Part shown: one piece after another, positions 20,004 to 28,002 of the stretch
Layout: every line of letters starts with the position of its first letter
Numbering within the stretch: position 1 is the stretch's first letter
Assembly (NCBI RefSeq): GCF_002197845.1
Contig: NZ_NIDE01000017.1
Span: 1,224,712 to 1,288,711, forward strand
Direction of reading: 5' to 3'
Origin: Fimbriiglobus ruber
GTDB taxonomy: Bacteria; Planctomycetota; Planctomycetia; Gemmatales; Gemmataceae
DNA length: 64,000 nt
Notes under the pieces: generated by a model
Seen by the model: the letters and a program-made list of their open reading frames with translations, nothing else
What the model was told of the DNA's origin: nothing
The model's database searches: none
Made by a program: the position numbers and the translations under genes

Positions 20004-20254
20004 CAACGACTAATCTGTACGTGCCTCGATCTCGCCATCTGCCCGGGTCGCGCCACTCACGAATTGACCGGTCGAATACAGAATGTATCTGTCCCGCCCG
20101 TCTTTCGTCACCGTAGGCCCGCCAGACAGATCCCCCTTGACCAGCCGGCGTTACGCACGTAACTCGATAGCTGGTGAGGTGTCGCGTGTAAACGTCGGGG
20201 TGGGTGCGGAAGGAACCGCCGCGCCGGTTCCGCGTTCCGGCCGGAGGGTACGCC

Positions 20255-21685: not shown

Positions 21686-22306
21686 ATGAGACCGACGGTT
21701 GCCGCGTTCTTTGGGGGAATCATCGCCCTGGCGATCGTCGCCCTGCCGTTCTGGTACAAAGCCCGCGCGTCCGTGACGTACCGGAATTTCCGCGTCGTCG
21801 ACCGCGACCAGTTGTACCGCAGCGGGCAGATGACGCCGGAAGGGTTCGACCGGGTGGTCAGCGAATACGGGATTCGGACGGTCATTTCGCTGCGTGAGAC
21901 GAAGGACGAGGGTGGGACGCACCAGGACTCGTCCGAAGACGAATATTGCCGCACCCACGGCATGACGTTCTACCGCTTCAAGCTGGCCGACTGGACGGAA
22001 ATCGACGGCCGTATTCCCGGGAACGACAACATTGAGGAGTTTCTGAAAATCCTGGCGAAGCCGGAAACCCAAAAGCCGATTCTCATCCACTGCTTCGCCG
22101 GCATCCACCGGACGGGCCCGCACTGTGCGGTCTACCGGATGGAGTACGACGGCTGGTCGAACGCGGACGCGATCGAGGAAATGAAGTCGATGGGCACGGT
22201 GCGGACGACGTTCGCGGACAACCTCATCACGTACCTGACCAACTACAAGCCCCGCCGGATACAAGCCGCCGAAGCAGTCATTGGCGGGTCGGTCGCGAAT
22301 CGGTAA
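21686..22306 (+). CDS. Membrane-anchored tyrosine/dual-specificity phosphatase
   Basis: A 206-residue protein with an N-terminal membrane anchor (about 7-23) followed by a phosphatase domain facing away from the cytoplasm. The CX5R active site is Cys136-F-A-G-I-H-Arg142 in ILIHCFAGIHRTGPH. Asp102 in KLADWTE is the likely general acid. NFRVVDRDQLYRSGQMTPEGF is typical of the bacterial DSP/Siw14-like group, which act on phosphotyrosine, inositol polyphosphates or similar substrates. GGGGATGAG gives a good ribosome site. It follows the GT-C-like gene directly. Confidence 0.88.
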   Translation: MRPTVAAFFGGIIALAIVALPFWYKARASVTYRNFRVVDRDQLYRSGQMTPEGFDRVVSEYGIRTVISLRETKDEGGTHQDSSEDEYCRTHGMTFYRFKLADWTEIDGRIPGNDNIEEFLKILAKPETQKPILIHCFAGIHRTGPHCAVYRMEYDGWSNADAIEEMKSMGTVRTTFADNLITYLTNYKPRRIQAAEAVIGGSVANR

Positions 22307-22832: not shown

Positions 22833-23155
22833 GTACTATACCCCCAGTCACAAAGTGAAAAAACTGAGCAAACTCCTGGCGGGTTAGCTCTATTTTAGGC
22901 TATGTGTACGATTTTGGGAATCGATAAAAGGCGATGCCCAAGCAGACGTGTTGCAAGATGTGACGGCGTGTCGCCAATAACGCTGTAGTAGCGATAGTCC
23001 TCTCCCCGCCGCATCGAAGAATTTCAAAAAACTTTGACCTGTTTTTCTCCCGGCGGCCATTAATGCTCGCGAAGCCGAAAACAGAGGTTAGTGGTCTAAC
23101 CGTCTGAACCGGCGGGCTTGGCCGGGCGCTTTTGGCTCATTGACGAGGTCGCACC
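22833..23155. other. Lower-GC intergenic region
   Basis: About 320 bases between the small hypothetical gene and the sigma-factor gene. It has lower GC than the rest of the window. No gene or repeat is supported; the sigma-factor promoter must be in its right part. Confidence 0.4.
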
Positions 23156-25045
23156 ATGTCGGTCGAGCAGCCAGACACGACAGGGAGCACGGCGACTTAC
23201 GATGATTTGTCGGACCGGGAACTATTGCGGCGGTTCGACTTCGGCCACGACGAGGCGGCGTTCGCGGCGGTGCTCAAGCGGCACGGCCCGATGGTGCTGC
23301 GCGTTTGCCAGCGGGTTCTGGACCGTCGGGAGGACGCCGAAGACGCGTTCCAGGCGACGTTCCTCGTGCTGGCGCGAAAAGTCGGCAGCGTTTCCTGGCG
23401 AGAATCGATCGGAACGTGGCTGCACGAGGCGGCCCACCGGCTGTCGCGCGAGTTTCGTCGGAACCTGTTGCGTCGGCAGAACCGCGACCGCAAAGTCCCG
23501 GCCCGCACGGGTGGTGACGCACTGGCCGAAGTGACGGGCCGCGAGTTACTCGCCATCCTTGATGAAGAGATGACGAACCTGCCGGACGAGTACCGGGCGC
23601 CGCTGCTTCTGTGCCACCTGGAAGAAATGGGGCAGGAAGAAGCGGCCCGCCACCTCGGTTGCTCAGTCAGCACACTGAAACGGCGGCTCCAGCAGGCCCG
23701 CGAACTCCTCCAAGCCCGCCTCACGCGCCGCGGATTGATACTGTCGGTGGCGGCCCTCGCCGCATTGCTGGCGACCGGGACCGCGACGGCCAGTGTGCCC
23801 GTCGCCCTGGCAACGAACACGACCCGGGCCGCGACGATGTCGGCGTCGGGCGTGCCGCCGGCGGCCGGGTTGGTGTCGCCCGGGGCCGCGTCGCTCGCCC
23901 GCGATTCCTTGCCGGTGGTCGTGTCGGCCAAGCTCAAACTGGTGATCGGCTTGCTCGCCGTCGGCGGACTGGCCGTGGCCGGCGTATCGTATCGCGGGTT
24001 GCCGGTCGGCGGCGGATGGCCGGTGCGAGTGGCGGCCGAGACGCCGGGGCCATCGGACCCGACCGTTTCCGCGACGGTGGAAACGAATCTCGGCACGGCC
24101 GGCGAGAACATTCGTCAGTTCGGGTTCGACGGCAACCCCGCGACGGCGTTCGTGTCCGCCAGAAATCCCCGGCCGGGCGACTACTACACGCTGGTCTTTG
24201 ACCACCCGGTCGACGTGAAATCGGTCGGCGTGCAGACGGGCGACCCGGACGGCGGGCGGGCGTTGACCGCCGGGAACCTGGAAGGTTCGTCGGACGGCAC
24301 CCGCTTCGACCTCCTCGCGGGGTTCAAAGATGGAACGGCTAAAGCGGACGCGGGCGGGCGGAAACTGACGGCCGTTCGCGTCCGCATGACTGTCGGGCAA
24401 GCTCACCCGCTCGTGATCCGCGAGATCGCGATCGATTCCGACCCAGTGGTGGCCGTGTATCGCCACCCCGTCGAATTCGTCGTGGACGCCCGCGAAGCCC
24501 GGGATATGGCGGATTGGGCCGAGCGGGCCGCCCGGATCTGTGAGCGGGAATACGCGATGATTTGCGAGGAACTGTCGAGCGACGGGTTCAAGCCACCGAC
24601 CCGCGTCACCCTCGTGCTCCGCTGGGATGCAGCTTCTCTGGTCGCCGCGACGGACGATCAAGTGATCGCGTCGGCCGGATATTTCCACGCGAACCCGCAC
24701 GAAATCGGGGCGTTAATCCACGCGACTTCCTACGTCGTACAGGCGTACCGCGGCGGCGGCAGCCCGACTTGGCTGGTGCATGGAATCGCCGACTACATCC
24801 GCTTCTTCAAGTTCGAGCCCGGAGCGCTGGCCGCCCCGGACCCGGAAACGGCCCGGTACGACGGCAACTCGCGCGAGACGGCCGCATTCCTGGCGTACCT
24901 GGTCGCCAGACACGACAAGCAGATTGTCCGGCACTTGAATGCGGCCCTCCGCGAGGGGCGCTACACGGACGACGTGTGGGTGACGTACACCGGGAAGTCG
25001 CTTCGCGAGTTGGGCGAAGAGTGGCACCACTCGCTCCACCGCTGA
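23156..25045 (+). CDS. ECF sigma factor fused to TM segments and a degenerate metallopeptidase-like domain
   Basis: A 629-residue fusion. Residues 1-190 are an ECF sigma factor: region 2 about 34-105 (RREDAEDAFQATFLVLAR) and region 4 about 135-185 (LPDEYRAPLLLCHLEEMGQ, then a helix-turn-helix). Hydrophobic segments at 194-210 and 258-278 follow. Residues about 300-430 look like a discoidin/F5-8-type beta-sandwich. Residues 437-629 resemble the basic-secretory-protein peptidase family. In that family a Gly-x-x-x-HExxH helix binds zinc; here the helix reads ALIHATSY (521-526), so Glu and the second His are missing, and the usual Glu after WLV is His542. The enzyme is probably dead and may serve as a sensor. 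If the membrane topology is right, the sigma part could be tethered and released by proteolysis. Confidence 0.88.
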   Translation: MSVEQPDTTGSTATYDDLSDRELLRRFDFGHDEAAFAAVLKRHGPMVLRVCQRVLDRREDAEDAFQATFLVLARKVGSVSWRESIGTWLHEAAHRLSREFRRNLLRRQNRDRKVPARTGGDALAEVTGRELLAILDEEMTNLPDEYRAPLLLCHLEEMGQEEAARHLGCSVSTLKRRLQQARELLQARLTRRGLILSVAALAALLATGTATASVPVALATNTTRAATMSASGVPPAAGLVSPGAASLARDSLPVVVSAKLKLVIGLLAVGGLAVAGVSYRGLPVGGGWPVRVAAETPGPSDPTVSATVETNLGTAGENIRQFGFDGNPATAFVSARNPRPGDYYTLVFDHPVDVKSVGVQTGDPDGGRALTAGNLEGSSDGTRFDLLAGFKDGTAKADAGGRKLTAVRVRMTVGQAHPLVIREIAIDSDPVVAVYRHPVEFVVDAREARDMADWAERAARICEREYAMICEELSSDGFKPPTRVTLVLRWDAASLVAATDDQVIASAGYFHANPHEIGALIHATSYVVQAYRGGGSPTWLVHGIADYIRFFKFEPGALAAPDPETARYDGNSRETAAFLAYLVARHDKQIVRHLNAALREGRYTDDVWVTYTGKSLRELGEEWHHSLHR

Positions 25046-25274
25046 CGGTGGCGAGCGAGAAGACATCGGGAATCAGGAAGGTCTCCGAGAGACGTAACAA
25101 AATACACACCGGCCGTAAGGTCGGGATGAATCCTCTCGCTTTTTAACCGGCAACCACGACCGGGGTGCTTCGGCTTCCCGGCTGGTTTTTTCATGGGTGA
25201 CGAGCCCGTTCTCTCGATTTTTGCGGGATTCTAACCGTTGCCGGCCCCGTCCTAACCGCGTGGAGATGCCCGTG

Positions 25275-26318
25275 ATGCCCGTGCCTCGTTTGACGACCCG
25301 CCGGTCGGCGTTCACGCTGATCGAGTTGCTGGTCGTGATCGCCATTATCGCGATCCTGATCGGTCTCTTGTTACCTGCCGTCCAGAAAGTCCGGGAGGCG
25401 GCCGCCCGCGCCAAGTGTTCAAACAACCTCAAGCAGATCGGGATCGCCCTCCACAACTACAACGTCACGTTCGAGCGGTTCCCGACCGGCCGGCCGGTGT
25501 TCCCGAGTAGCCTGAGCCCGAGCCTGGGTGGGGCGGAAATGCCCGTATTCCTGGAGTTCCAGCCGACCGACCAGTCCGCGATCGCGCCGGAAGCGATCGG
25601 CGGGTGGATGGTCCGCATCCTCCCGTACATCGAACAGGCGGCCGCCCAGAACTTGGCCGCCGGCAAGTCGACGGCCGTCACCATCGACGCCGGCTACACC
25701 GCGATGGCGACCACGACCATCTCGACCTACATCTGCCCGTCGGCCATCGCCCCGACGGCGGGGACCGCGCCCCCGTCGCCGTGGGTCGCGAGCAGCTACG
25801 CGGGGGTGACCGGCAACAACGAGAACACCGACCCGACGACCGGCCCGATCGGGATGAACGCCACGAACGGGATGTTCCCGGTCAAGACGCCGTACGGCCC
25901 GGACCCGAGCGTCCGCCCGACGGTCCTGGTCGCGAGTATCTCGGACGGGTTGAGCAACACGGTCGCGGTGGGCGAGCGGCACGTGAGCATCATGGGCATG
26001 ACCTGGGTCGGCTCCGACTACCACACCCTGTTGGCTCTGCCGAACCAGAACTCGTTCGGCGGCGTCGGCCCGTCCAACGGGACGCCCGGCGCGTTCACCT
26101 TTACATTCACGGCCTGCCCGTCGTCGTTACCGGGCCGGTACGACCCGTTCACGGTGACCAACCAGTGCAGCCAGGATCGTTACAACAGCCCGCACCTTGG
26201 CGGCGGCAACTGGTTACTGGCCGACGGCAGCGTCCGGTCGTTCGCCTTCACGGCGGGCGCGACTATCCTGCCGGCGATGGTCAGCATCAACGGCGGGGAA
26301 GTCGCCAGCCCCGATTGA
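25275..26318 (+). CDS. DUF1559 prepilin-like protein (copy 1)
   Basis: A 347-residue protein of the large planctomycete DUF1559 family. The type IV prepilin-like N-terminus is [20 protein letters not shown], with the glutamate of the FTLIE motif five residues into the hydrophobic helix. [21 protein letters not shown] and the C-terminal H-x-G-G...LADGSVRSF are further family hallmarks. I chose ATG 25275 because GGAG lies nine bases upstream; another ATG nine bases earlier has no room for a ribosome site. Expected to be processed by a prepilin peptidase and placed in the envelope; the molecular role of the family is not established. A lipoprotein gene follows after 34 bases. Confidence 0.93.
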
Positions 26319-26352: not shown

Positions 26353-26814
26353 ATGATGTGGTCGCGTATCCCGGCCCGGTCGGTGAGGCTCCTGGTGGTC
26401 GTCGCACTCGTCGTCCCCGTGGTCGGGTGCGGGAAGCCGCACGGCGACGTGGCCGGCCGAGTCACCTACCGCGGCCGGCCCGTCGTGTACGGCACGGTCA
26501 ACGCCATCGGGTCGGACCAGATGACGTATTACGGGACGATTCAAACGGACGGGACGTTTACCATCCGGAACGTCCCGGTCGGCCCGCTCCGGCTCGGCAT
26601 CTACAGCCCCGACCCTTACTACGAGTTGCCGGTCCCGCCGGCGGTCAAGGTGCGGCTAGAAGAGGCGCGGCGGGCAGCCGGGGCGGATAACATGCCGAAG
26701 CCACCGAAGGGGCAGTGGTTCAAAATCCCCCCGAAATACACGGACCCGATGTCGTCGACACTAACCGGAGTGGTGACCGCTCCGCTGGCGAATATCGATT
26801 GTAACTTGGATTGA
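26353..26814 (+). CDS. Small lipoprotein with carboxypeptidase-regulatory-like fold
   Basis: A 153-residue protein. GAGGA lies six bases before ATG 26353. The signal peptide ends in the lipobox VVGC with Cys26 as the lipid-modified residue. The rest begins DVAGRVTYRGRPVVYGTVNAIG and continues with FTIRNVPVGPLRLGIYSPDP. That is the transthyretin-like pattern of many planctomycete lipoproteins found beside DUF1559 genes. The two genes form a small operon. The function of the pairing is unknown. Confidence 0.85.
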   Translation: MMWSRIPARSVRLLVVVALVVPVVGCGKPHGDVAGRVTYRGRPVVYGTVNAIGSDQMTYYGTIQTDGTFTIRNVPVGPLRLGIYSPDPYYELPVPPAVKVRLEEARRAAGADNMPKPPKGQWFKIPPKYTDPMSSTLTGVVTAPLANIDCNLD

Positions 26815-27378: not shown

Positions 27379-28002
27379 GTGGCGCCCGCGCTCATTTTTG
27401 ATGCCCACGGCTTCCCTTACGTCCGGCTCCGCGGCCCCACGGCCGTCGGCCTGTTGCCCGTCTTAAAGGCCCAGTTCGAGATCGCGTACGGGGCGCCGGG
27501 CGGGACCGAGGTACTCGATTACCCCGCGTGCCTGCGAGCCAACCCGCGGGGGAGTTGGCGCCGCCCGGCGGCGGGGACGGGCCCGTTGTACCTCACGGGG
27601 GTACTCGCGGCCGAAGCCCGGGCGGCCGGCCAACGGTTCGGGCCGGGGAGCCGGCTCGCGACCGCCGAAGAGTGGCAGGAAGCCGACGCATTACTCGACC
27701 GGCCGCTCGACCCCGCGACGCTGGCCAAACTCCTCGCCGCCGACCGGCTGCACCCCGCGGCCGCGGCGGTCATCGGCCGGACGCGGGCCGCGACCTGGCG
27801 CGAGATCGGCGAAGGGCTATTAGAATGGGTCCAGGCGCCGGCCGTACTGGGCCTGTACGGCCGGCCGCGACCCGAGTACCGACTCAACCTGCTCCTCAAC
27901 CCGCGAATCCACCCGCCGGTCGTCCCGCGCGGTGCCGAGCGGCACCCGGCCTACGGGCTCCGGCTCGCGATCCCGCACACCAAGGAAAGGCGGTCCGCGT
28001 GA
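27379..28002 (+). CDS. First gene of the GAP1/GTPase cluster, possible FGE-like remnant
   Basis: A 207-residue protein that starts with GTG 27379 after TGAGG. It has no signal peptide or membrane span. The segment GSRLATAEEWQEADALL resembles RLPTEAEWEYAA of formylglycine-generating-enzyme/SUMF1 domains, and the C-terminal AYGLRLAIPHT resembles their GFRLA end. The rest is unlike SUMF1 and too short for the full fold, so it may be a divergent or reduced member, or the likeness may be chance. Its stop overlaps the next start as GTGA. Translational coupling to the GAP1-like gene shows it belongs to the same system. Confidence 0.6.
   Translation: MAPALIFDAHGFPYVRLRGPTAVGLLPVLKAQFEIAYGAPGGTEVLDYPACLRANPRGSWRRPAAGTGPLYLTGVLAAEARAAGQRFGPGSRLATAEEWQEADALLDRPLDPATLAKLLAADRLHPAAAAVIGRTRAATWREIGEGLLEWVQAPAVLGLYGRPRPEYRLNLLLNPRIHPPVVPRGAERHPAYGLRLAIPHTKERRSA

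Follow-up and report, generated by a model that had tools for sequence, protein, structure and literature searches.

The gene considered here lies in a 64,000-nucleotide stretch of the genome of the planctomycete Fimbriiglobus ruber (contig NZ_NIDE01000017.1; the whole stretch is called the window below) and encodes an extracytoplasmic function (ECF) sigma factor joined to a metallopeptidase domain whose catalytic site has been lost. It is one uninterrupted open reading frame (ORF) at 23156-25045 on the forward strand, which starts with ATG and encodes 629 amino acids. Both sigma regions score above the curated Pfam cut-offs (Sigma70_r2, PF04542, 36.4 bits against 24; Sigma70_r4_2, PF08281, 48.5 bits against 25.7), and the general ECF model TIGR02937 (74.3 bits, cut-off 42.9) places the protein in the ECF sigma-70 family. 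The peptidase half matches the basic secretory protein (BSP) family, PF04450, with 54.8 bits (cut-off 23.8, E 1.4e-14), the very check that an earlier note on this DNA had proposed, and the fusion that the note had read from the sequence therefore stands.

The note had also placed a discoidin-like domain between the two. Its F5/8 type C match of 19.1 bits falls below the cut-off of 28.2, and we call the domain CBM32/discoidin-like nonetheless because the predicted fold supports it. A full-length AlphaFold2 model was built on a 58-sequence alignment of the window and locus proteins, with a mean predicted local distance difference test score (pLDDT) of 89.1 and a predicted template modelling score (pTM) of 0.59; its blocks beginning at residue 301 average 89-98. 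Residues 304-430 of this model match the GnT-IV lectin domain 7xtm (Z score 17.3, root mean square deviation [rmsd] 1.8 Å across 123 residues), with CBM32 modules matching at Z 14-15. The part at 439-627 resembles the catalytic domains of LTA4 hydrolase (5ni4; Z 13.6, rmsd 3.5 Å, 184 residues) and of a cold-adapted aminopeptidase (Z 13.6; the two matches span 3.3-3.5 Å and 183-184 residues), and on this model the BSP half would have a gluzincin-like catalytic-domain fold. The same architecture was found in 10 further genomes, and this recurrence argues against a chance fusion. One of the 10 (G026; L086:3283-5181, + strand) has frame breaks and reads in changing frames, for which sequencing error and a broken gene are indistinguishable.

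The loss of the catalytic site is a property of the fused copies as a group. We read 132 BSP sites, that of the window included (11 sigma-fused and 121 unfused), from a family search (95 genomes), a genome-contig search, and a class search (397 genomes); because L063/L092 and L064/L112 are identical pairs, the unfused rows comprise no more than 119 different sequences. All 121 unfused copies have HExxH together with the downstream Glu, while the catalytic set is kept in none of the 11 fused ones. L078, which has a frame break in its BSP region, is part of this count but not of the column counts or the tree described below. An intact HExxH in fused homologues was what the earlier note had named as grounds for abandoning its reading, and the survey of the motif that it had suggested gave none. 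Column counts refer to the core of living relatives, that is, those with an intact site at 40% identity or more (47 of 65 rows). E523, H526, and E542 are each invariant in these 47, which bears out the note's statement that the window copy has lost both HExxH (now HATSY) and the downstream Glu (now His542). In the fused copies, the catalytic Glu at position 523 has become Ala (10 copies) or Ser (1 copy), position 526 is Tyr in 4, Leu in 4, Phe in 2, and His in 1, and position 542 is His in 5, Gln in 4, Asn in 1, and Asp in 1. Judged by HATSY and His542, the BSP domain of the window protein is predicted not to be an active BSP enzyme. A loss confined to a single strain was rejected, since the loss is common to 11 genomes.

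It is very unlikely that the BSP half retains enzyme activity through a rearranged metal site or a different catalytic residue. His522 is retained in 9 of the 11 fused copies and, with His at 542 in 5 of the 11, a two-His site is conceivable in some, but there are seven different combinations at 522/523/526/542, and a conserved metal site was rejected because the 11 share no set of ligands. Tyr572, invariant in the 47 living relatives and probably catalytic there, is also lost in every fused copy (Ser in 10, Pro in 1). The fused copies have residues of their own instead: Asn513 is found in 11 of 11, and Ala507, Gly508, Ser525, and Pro561 are each found in 10.

In a tree of 69 C-terminal sequences (all rows at 33% identity or more), the 11 fused copies form one group with 100/100 support, nested in a weakly supported (95/68) group of 28 rows that all belong to this family. 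This fits, without proving, a single origin. The genome of the window also holds a living unfused copy (L002/L081), which is 53% identical, has HETVH and WLVEG, and begins, as judged by eye, like a protein with a signal peptide. That paralogue (373 aa, C17:189657-190778) lies between two sigma genes of the same strand with propeller-like tails, in the region L081:7770-13348 (- strand; C17:187769-193347), an arrangement that is a possible setting for a fusion.

The ratio of nonsynonymous to synonymous substitution rates (dN/dS) was compared in the three genomes where a dead and a living copy occur together; the G026 gene with its frame breaks was left out of this comparison and of the full-length alignments. 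It was 0.16-0.18 for the dead BSP domain and 0.03-0.05 for the living one, with 0.06-0.08 for the sigma region in the same dead-copy pairs. By these ratios, the dead domain is under purifying selection, the catalytic constraint being relaxed and constraint as such kept. We consider it extremely improbable that the gene is a decaying fusion without function. In the same genome pairs, the dead domain has about four times the dN/dS of the living copies, and the G026 orthologue has its frame breaks, but 0.16-0.18 is far below 1, a value on which we rejected a pseudogene, the frame is open in 10 of the 11 copies, and gene order and upstream motif have been retained.

This gene order amounts to a conserved three-gene cassette. 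In all 11 fusion genomes, the next two genes on the same strand encode the same DUF1559 pseudopilin and the same small lipoprotein-like protein. The pseudopilin matches Pfam PF07596 and PF07963, and TIGR02532 and TIGR04294 above cut-off, and its orthologues adjoining the fusion in the other 10 genomes are 61-72% identical. The lipoprotein-like protein has a weak PF13620 match (24.7 bits, below the cut-off of 32.3) and orthologues in the other fusion genomes that are 59-67% identical. Among the 95 family genomes, 36 have a match to it at E <= 1e-8, but a match at E < 1e-48 is confined to the 11 that carry the fusion and is absent from the other 84. The next-best match is an isolated 81-residue fragment in G092 (2.8e-24), and the rest are weaker (E 7e-21 or worse). 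A 12th cassette in G092 was rejected, as the fragment stands alone, with no sigma factor and no DUF1559 gene. The living BSP copies of G008-G011 and G026 have no cassette-type neighbours within 5-6 kb. Among the window neighbours compared, the downstream pair alone is conserved: the genes at 20204, 21686, 22563, and 18735 have no match in the 0.6-3.3 kb upstream of the orthologues, and the gene at 27379 has none in the short stretch of DNA available downstream of them.

Upstream of the fused gene in 11 of 11 genomes is the motif TGACC-N14/15-YGRCCAT, with a T-rich middle and an A-rich lead, 41-125 nucleotides before the start codon (the starts of L088 and L090 are assumed). Outside the motif, 2 of 117 anchored columns reach 9/11 identity, and the chance of the 12-base pattern in a shuffled 400-mer is 0.00005-0.00035. 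A strict form, TGACCN3TTTN8YGRCCAT, has one match in the 12.36-Mb genome of the window, at the fusion gene, and within 2 mismatches the window has one match, again the fusion's own. In 15 other genomes, the strict form gave 8 perfect matches, each at a fusion; in the two remaining fusion genomes, the site departs from the strict form by one mismatch (G017) or by one additional base in the spacer (G010). It is absent from the five genomes without a fusion, and no match away from a fusion was found in the 16 genomes searched. The presence of the motif at the fusions is by construction, because it was derived from those sites, and it is the absence elsewhere that is informative. A wider regulon did not emerge: allowing at most 2 mismatches gave 51 matches in the genome of the window against 52 for the reversed control, which is chance, and allowing at most 1 gave 30 against 15 reversed in the 15 other genomes, with the 8 perfect matches and that of G017 at fusions and none of the 30 at a living BSP gene. 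We infer that the motif is the promoter used by the fused sigma factor itself, which may control only its own small gene cluster.

Table 1. Features of the sigma-BSP fusion, its cassette, and a related sigma paralogue
Feature	Position	Strand	Basis or remark
Putative dedicated promoter, TGACC-N14-YGRCCAT	23035..23060	+	Ends 95 nt before the start codon
ECF sigma factor-neck-transmembrane-CBM32-like-dead BSP fusion, 629 aa	23156..25045	+	ORF, Pfam, AlphaFold2
Sigma-70 region 2 (aa 41-103)	23276..23464	+	Pfam PF04542 above cut-off
Sigma-70 region 4 (aa 134-185)	23555..23710	+	Pfam PF08281 above cut-off
Helical neck (aa 196-250), common to the sigma paralogues	23741..23905	+	AlphaFold2 helices 198-207, 216-230, and one from 242; block pLDDT 71-97 over 201-250, two models
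Single predicted membrane helix (about aa 252-278)	23909..23989	+	Hydropathy peak and N-side Lys/Arg bias; model confidence low
CBM32/discoidin-like domain (about aa 303-430)	24062..24445	+	Predicted-fold match
BSP (PF04450) pseudo-metallopeptidase domain (about aa 436-627)	24461..25036	+	Pfam 479-622; predicted-fold match
Former HExxH, now HATSY (aa 522-526)	24719..24733	+	Sequence, alignment columns
Former third zinc ligand Glu, now His542	24779..24781	+	Sequence, alignment columns
DUF1559 pseudopilin (prepilin signal, H-X9-DG), second cassette gene	25275..26318	+	Likely ATG start chosen; listed ORF opens at GTG 25197
Small lipoprotein-like protein, third cassette gene	26353..26814	+	Start chosen; Cys after hydrophobic stretch
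Peptidase_MA-like sigma paralogue, two loci	L146:666-3284; L127:320-2017	-; +	Same sigma region; one near contig start

The fusion is one of about 40 sigma paralogues with a sigma-neck-transmembrane plan in its own genome (loci L122-L160 and L081). These were selected from 70 search matches, mostly as those extending past the sigma domains, and number 40-41, since L127 and L146, which do not differ in their sigma region, may represent a single locus that is duplicated. Their tails are diverse. Propellers are frequent (PD40 in 14 of 42), HlyD/CusB adaptor tails occur in L123 and L140, secretin short domains in L149 and L150, an outer membrane efflux (OEP) match beside a propeller match in L158, DUF1559 in L131, L141, L153, L159, and L160, and CarboxypepD_reg with thioredoxin-like domains in L147 and L155 (CarboxypepD_reg below cut-off in L155), while several tails have no Pfam match. 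The adaptor, secretin, OEP, DUF1559, CarboxypepD_reg, and thioredoxin-like families usually work in the envelope or outside the cytoplasm. The survey suggests that this genome may generally build its sigma tails from parts of the envelope. Not every sigma-peptidase fusion in the genome is dead, because one paralogue, whose similarity to Peptidase_MA is weak (21.9 bits, cut-off 32.4), keeps HExxH at residue 432.

The linker between the sigma and CBM32-like domains has two hydrophobic stretches, and the earlier note had allowed for one or two transmembrane (TM) helices. We aligned 51 sigma proteins (10 fusions and 41 paralogues of the same genome) and scored as TM a 19-residue window with a mean Kyte-Doolittle value of at least 1.6. 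The stretch at 244-290 reaches this value in 49 of the 51 proteins, and that at 188-222 reaches it in 24; the former is the stronger of the two in 46. Lys and Arg residues around the stretch at 244-290 are more numerous on the N-terminal flank in 38 proteins, on the C-terminal flank in 4, and equal in 9. These counts favour a single helix. A TM segment behind region 4, as in the sigma/anti-sigma fusions ECF48, ECF52, and ECF53 and in IutY, is present here by hydropathy alone. Pro/Ala-rich linkers follow the TM segment in many of the paralogues, as seen by eye. A cytoplasmic C-terminal part was the note's other ground for abandoning its reading, but this half is likely to lie outside the cytoplasm, because five indirect lines agree: one robust TM segment, its Lys/Arg-rich N-terminal flank, a secreted-looking living relative, envelope-type tails in the paralogues, and the Pro/Ala-rich linkers.

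If the stretch at 188-222 also spanned the membrane, the number of passes would be even and the C terminus would therefore return inside. The CBM32-like and BSP halves would then be cytoplasmic and could regulate the sigma factor by conformation or protein contact, in the manner of the soluble regulatory tails described for ECF41 and ECF42 (PMC8999054). The Kyte-Doolittle value of the stretch is 1.95 for the window protein and 1.64-2.22 across the 10 aligned fusions, and the stretch follows Arg residues. Nevertheless, we find two passes unlikely, and disfavoured rather than rejected: the stretch reaches the TM value in only about half as many proteins as its neighbour, both AlphaFold2 models place it inside a compact helical neck (residues 196-250), as a short helix of 10 residues (198-207), the living paralogue begins like a secreted protein, and two paralogues with HlyD adaptors and two with secretin short domains follow the same plan.

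The membrane helix itself (residues 252-275) is modelled with low confidence (block pLDDT 59-40). The neck preceding it is predicted to be a folded helical unit, with no Pfam match within 196-250 at E <= 1. There was also no clear neck-specific structural match, which says nothing about a new fold because the aligned rows do not span the neck. A second model of the sigma factor plus neck (residues 1-261, 34 sequences, pTM 0.82) has regions 2 and 4 in an arrangement that superposes on the anti-sigma-bound sigma factors 4cxf, 5wur, and 5wuq with an rmsd of 7.0-8.3 Å over about 150 residues, against 22-28 Å on several ECF initiation complexes for which the alignment covers both regions. Some anti-sigma complexes align with the model over one region only. 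The modelled arrangement is compatible with a closed, self-inhibited sigma factor, for which it is weak evidence, as discussed below.

With moderate confidence, we read the protein as a membrane-tethered ECF sigma factor that carries its own sensor in its C-terminal half and transcribes its own cassette. The reading is supported because the site is lost in all fused copies while every unfused copy keeps it, because new residues have become conserved, and because the dead domain is under purifying selection. The grouping of the fused copies in the tree, the TM segment with its flank bias, the envelope-type tails of the paralogues, the sigma-neck model, the partner genes, the motif, and the M50 genes also speak for it. 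The sigma half would be cytoplasmic and the ectodomain periplasmic, with the neck keeping the arrangement of regions 2 and 4 closed. The ectodomain would bind a ligand without cutting it, most likely a glycan or glycopeptide and perhaps the substrate of the living BSP paralogue; we propose this kind of ligand in view of the lectin-like domain and of the BSP fold that has been kept. Binding would alter the tether or trigger its cleavage, so that the sigma factor could reach RNA polymerase and transcribe its cassette from TGACC-N14/15-YGRCCAT, thereby raising its own level, and the pseudopilin and lipoprotein would be the output. DUF1559 genes have been reported to respond to stress in Rhodopirellula (PMC2754498). 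We also infer, as the earlier note had supposed, that the ectodomain senses and that no separate anti-sigma factor is needed. No anti-sigma factor recognisable by Pfam was found among the neighbours 18450, 20204, 21686, 22563, and 27379; their sole match is of the tyrosine phosphatase type. That gene (21686-22306, + strand), two genes upstream of the fusion, encodes a tyrosine or dual-specificity phosphatase-type protein with a hydrophobic N terminus and is not conserved beside the orthologues within the 0.6-3.3 kb compared.

Several points weigh against the tethered-sensor reading, among them the hydropathy of the first stretch and the raised dN/dS of the dead domain given above. The motif might serve a different regulator or sigma factor. 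Between the sigma stop codon and the probable start of the pseudopilin lie 38-113 nucleotides in nine orthologues but 229 in the window, where two terminator-like hairpins (25122-25185) lie between the fusion and the DUF1559 gene, and for this reason cotranscription is uncertain in the window. Terminator-like sites over the 4.2-kb region are not clearly enriched (5 observed against 3.0 +/- 1.6 in shuffles); several of the intergenic gaps in the orthologues also fold strongly. The arrangement of regions 2 and 4 comes from an AlphaFold2 model without partners, and other anti-sigma complexes fit it worse (5uxx at 9.2 Å, 6dxo at 13.9 Å, and 1or7, 8z6g, and 6in7 at 11-12 Å), which is why it counts for little. 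Genes of the Peptidase_M50 family, to which site-2-type proteases belong, are present in the genome, but this says little about release by cleavage, because they are found in 14 of 14 control genomes as well.

The ectodomain might instead be an anchor or scaffold that receives no signal and holds a constitutively active sigma factor at a site on the membrane or wall, or that holds the pseudopilin or lipoprotein. Two partner genes of envelope type adjoin the fusion in all 11 genomes, and a study of Tuwongella reports some of its ECF sigma factors from fractions soluble in Triton or SDS (PMC8567305). We think this improbable, as the dedicated, apparently autoregulatory motif and the new conserved residues, close in the sequence to the lost site, suggest more than anchoring.

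If the tethered-sensor reading is correct, the protein would show a dead enzyme put to new use as a receptor within a sigma factor. It would also be an unusually tractable case, with sensor, tether, sigma factor, promoter, and output within 3.8 kb, a living counterpart with which the sensor can be compared, and a predicted target list of one site. More speculatively, Gemmata-type bacteria might possess a class of one-protein devices in which a sigma factor is tethered across the membrane to a borrowed envelope part, be it a pump adaptor, a secretin piece, a pseudopilin, a propeller, or a peptidase, here a silenced copy of a secreted peptidase that would bind the living enzyme's substrate and leave it intact while the sigma factor serves a single promoter.

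As the earlier note had stated, C-terminal extensions of sigma factors are known in planctomycetes, where ECF sigma factors with WD40 tails have been reported (PMC8567305, PMC8999054). The window protein resembles these ECF57 proteins in being a planctomycete ECF sigma factor with a long C-terminal extension, but its extension is a CBM32-like domain and a dead metallopeptidase, in contrast to propellers. Of the two cysteines reported for ECF57 in regions 2 and 4 (PMC8999054), with which we compare by description only, C51 is present here in 43 of the 51 aligned proteins (8/10 fusions and 35/41 paralogues) and C153 in 50 (10/10 and 40/41). Precedents for a tethered sigma factor are SCO4117 (ECF52) of Streptomyces coelicolor and IutY (ECF243) of Pseudomonas putida (PMC8999054). 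SCO4117 likewise joins its sigma factor, within one chain, to a membrane segment, a stretch rich in proline, and an ectodomain that binds carbohydrate, but the ECF52 group has a zinc-finger anti-sigma domain, of which Pfam detects none in the window protein, and the consulted text of PMC8999054 mentions no dead enzyme for SCO4117. IutY joins a sigma factor and a membrane inhibitor in one chain and is described as released by Prc and RseP; it differs in acting in xenosiderophore cell-surface signalling, and the same text mentions no enzyme-derived ectodomain. The SigI/RsgI systems of cellulolytic clostridia are also usually autoregulated, and their RsgI anti-sigma factors have extracytoplasmic sensory modules (PMC6056542); titles cited in that paper name carbohydrate-binding modules and glycoside hydrolases as biosensors. 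Unlike here, where one protein has one detectable site, SigI and RsgI are two proteins serving enzyme genes. With the BSP peptidases of PF04450 (Peptidase of plants and bacteria), the window copy shares sequence family and a gluzincin-like predicted fold, but it lacks the catalytic Glu and the zinc-ligand set and is fused to a sigma factor. Reviews (including PMC8999054) name the control of ECF sigma factors that lack an apparent anti-sigma factor as an open question.

No sigma-BSP fusion was among the matches listed in a search of titles and abstract openings in the open-licence PMC literature, a scope that leaves out subscription papers. As far as that literature shows, the tether is of a known kind, and the dead metallopeptidase, the fixed partners, and the single promoter site are new. 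The genomes surveyed agree with the earlier note that a degenerate peptidase is an unusual extension: beyond the 11 fusions of the family, none was found among 397 class genomes or 102 order genomes. In this survey, the open frames of more than 600 amino acids (L048, L051, L057, L077, L079, and L102-L104) were read and contain no sigma factor; for 55 class-search rows with open frames below 600 amino acids, the BSP site was read and not the flanks, so a frame-broken fusion such as that of G026 could be missed. The discoidin-BSP module occurs in other proteins as well. In G046, amidohydrolase, discoidin, and intact BSP matches lie in one open frame (L048:1495-3996, - strand), and in G051, a protein kinase domain is fused to the same module with an intact HEAVH (L077:2989-5760, - strand), an instance of the module on another type of signalling protein.

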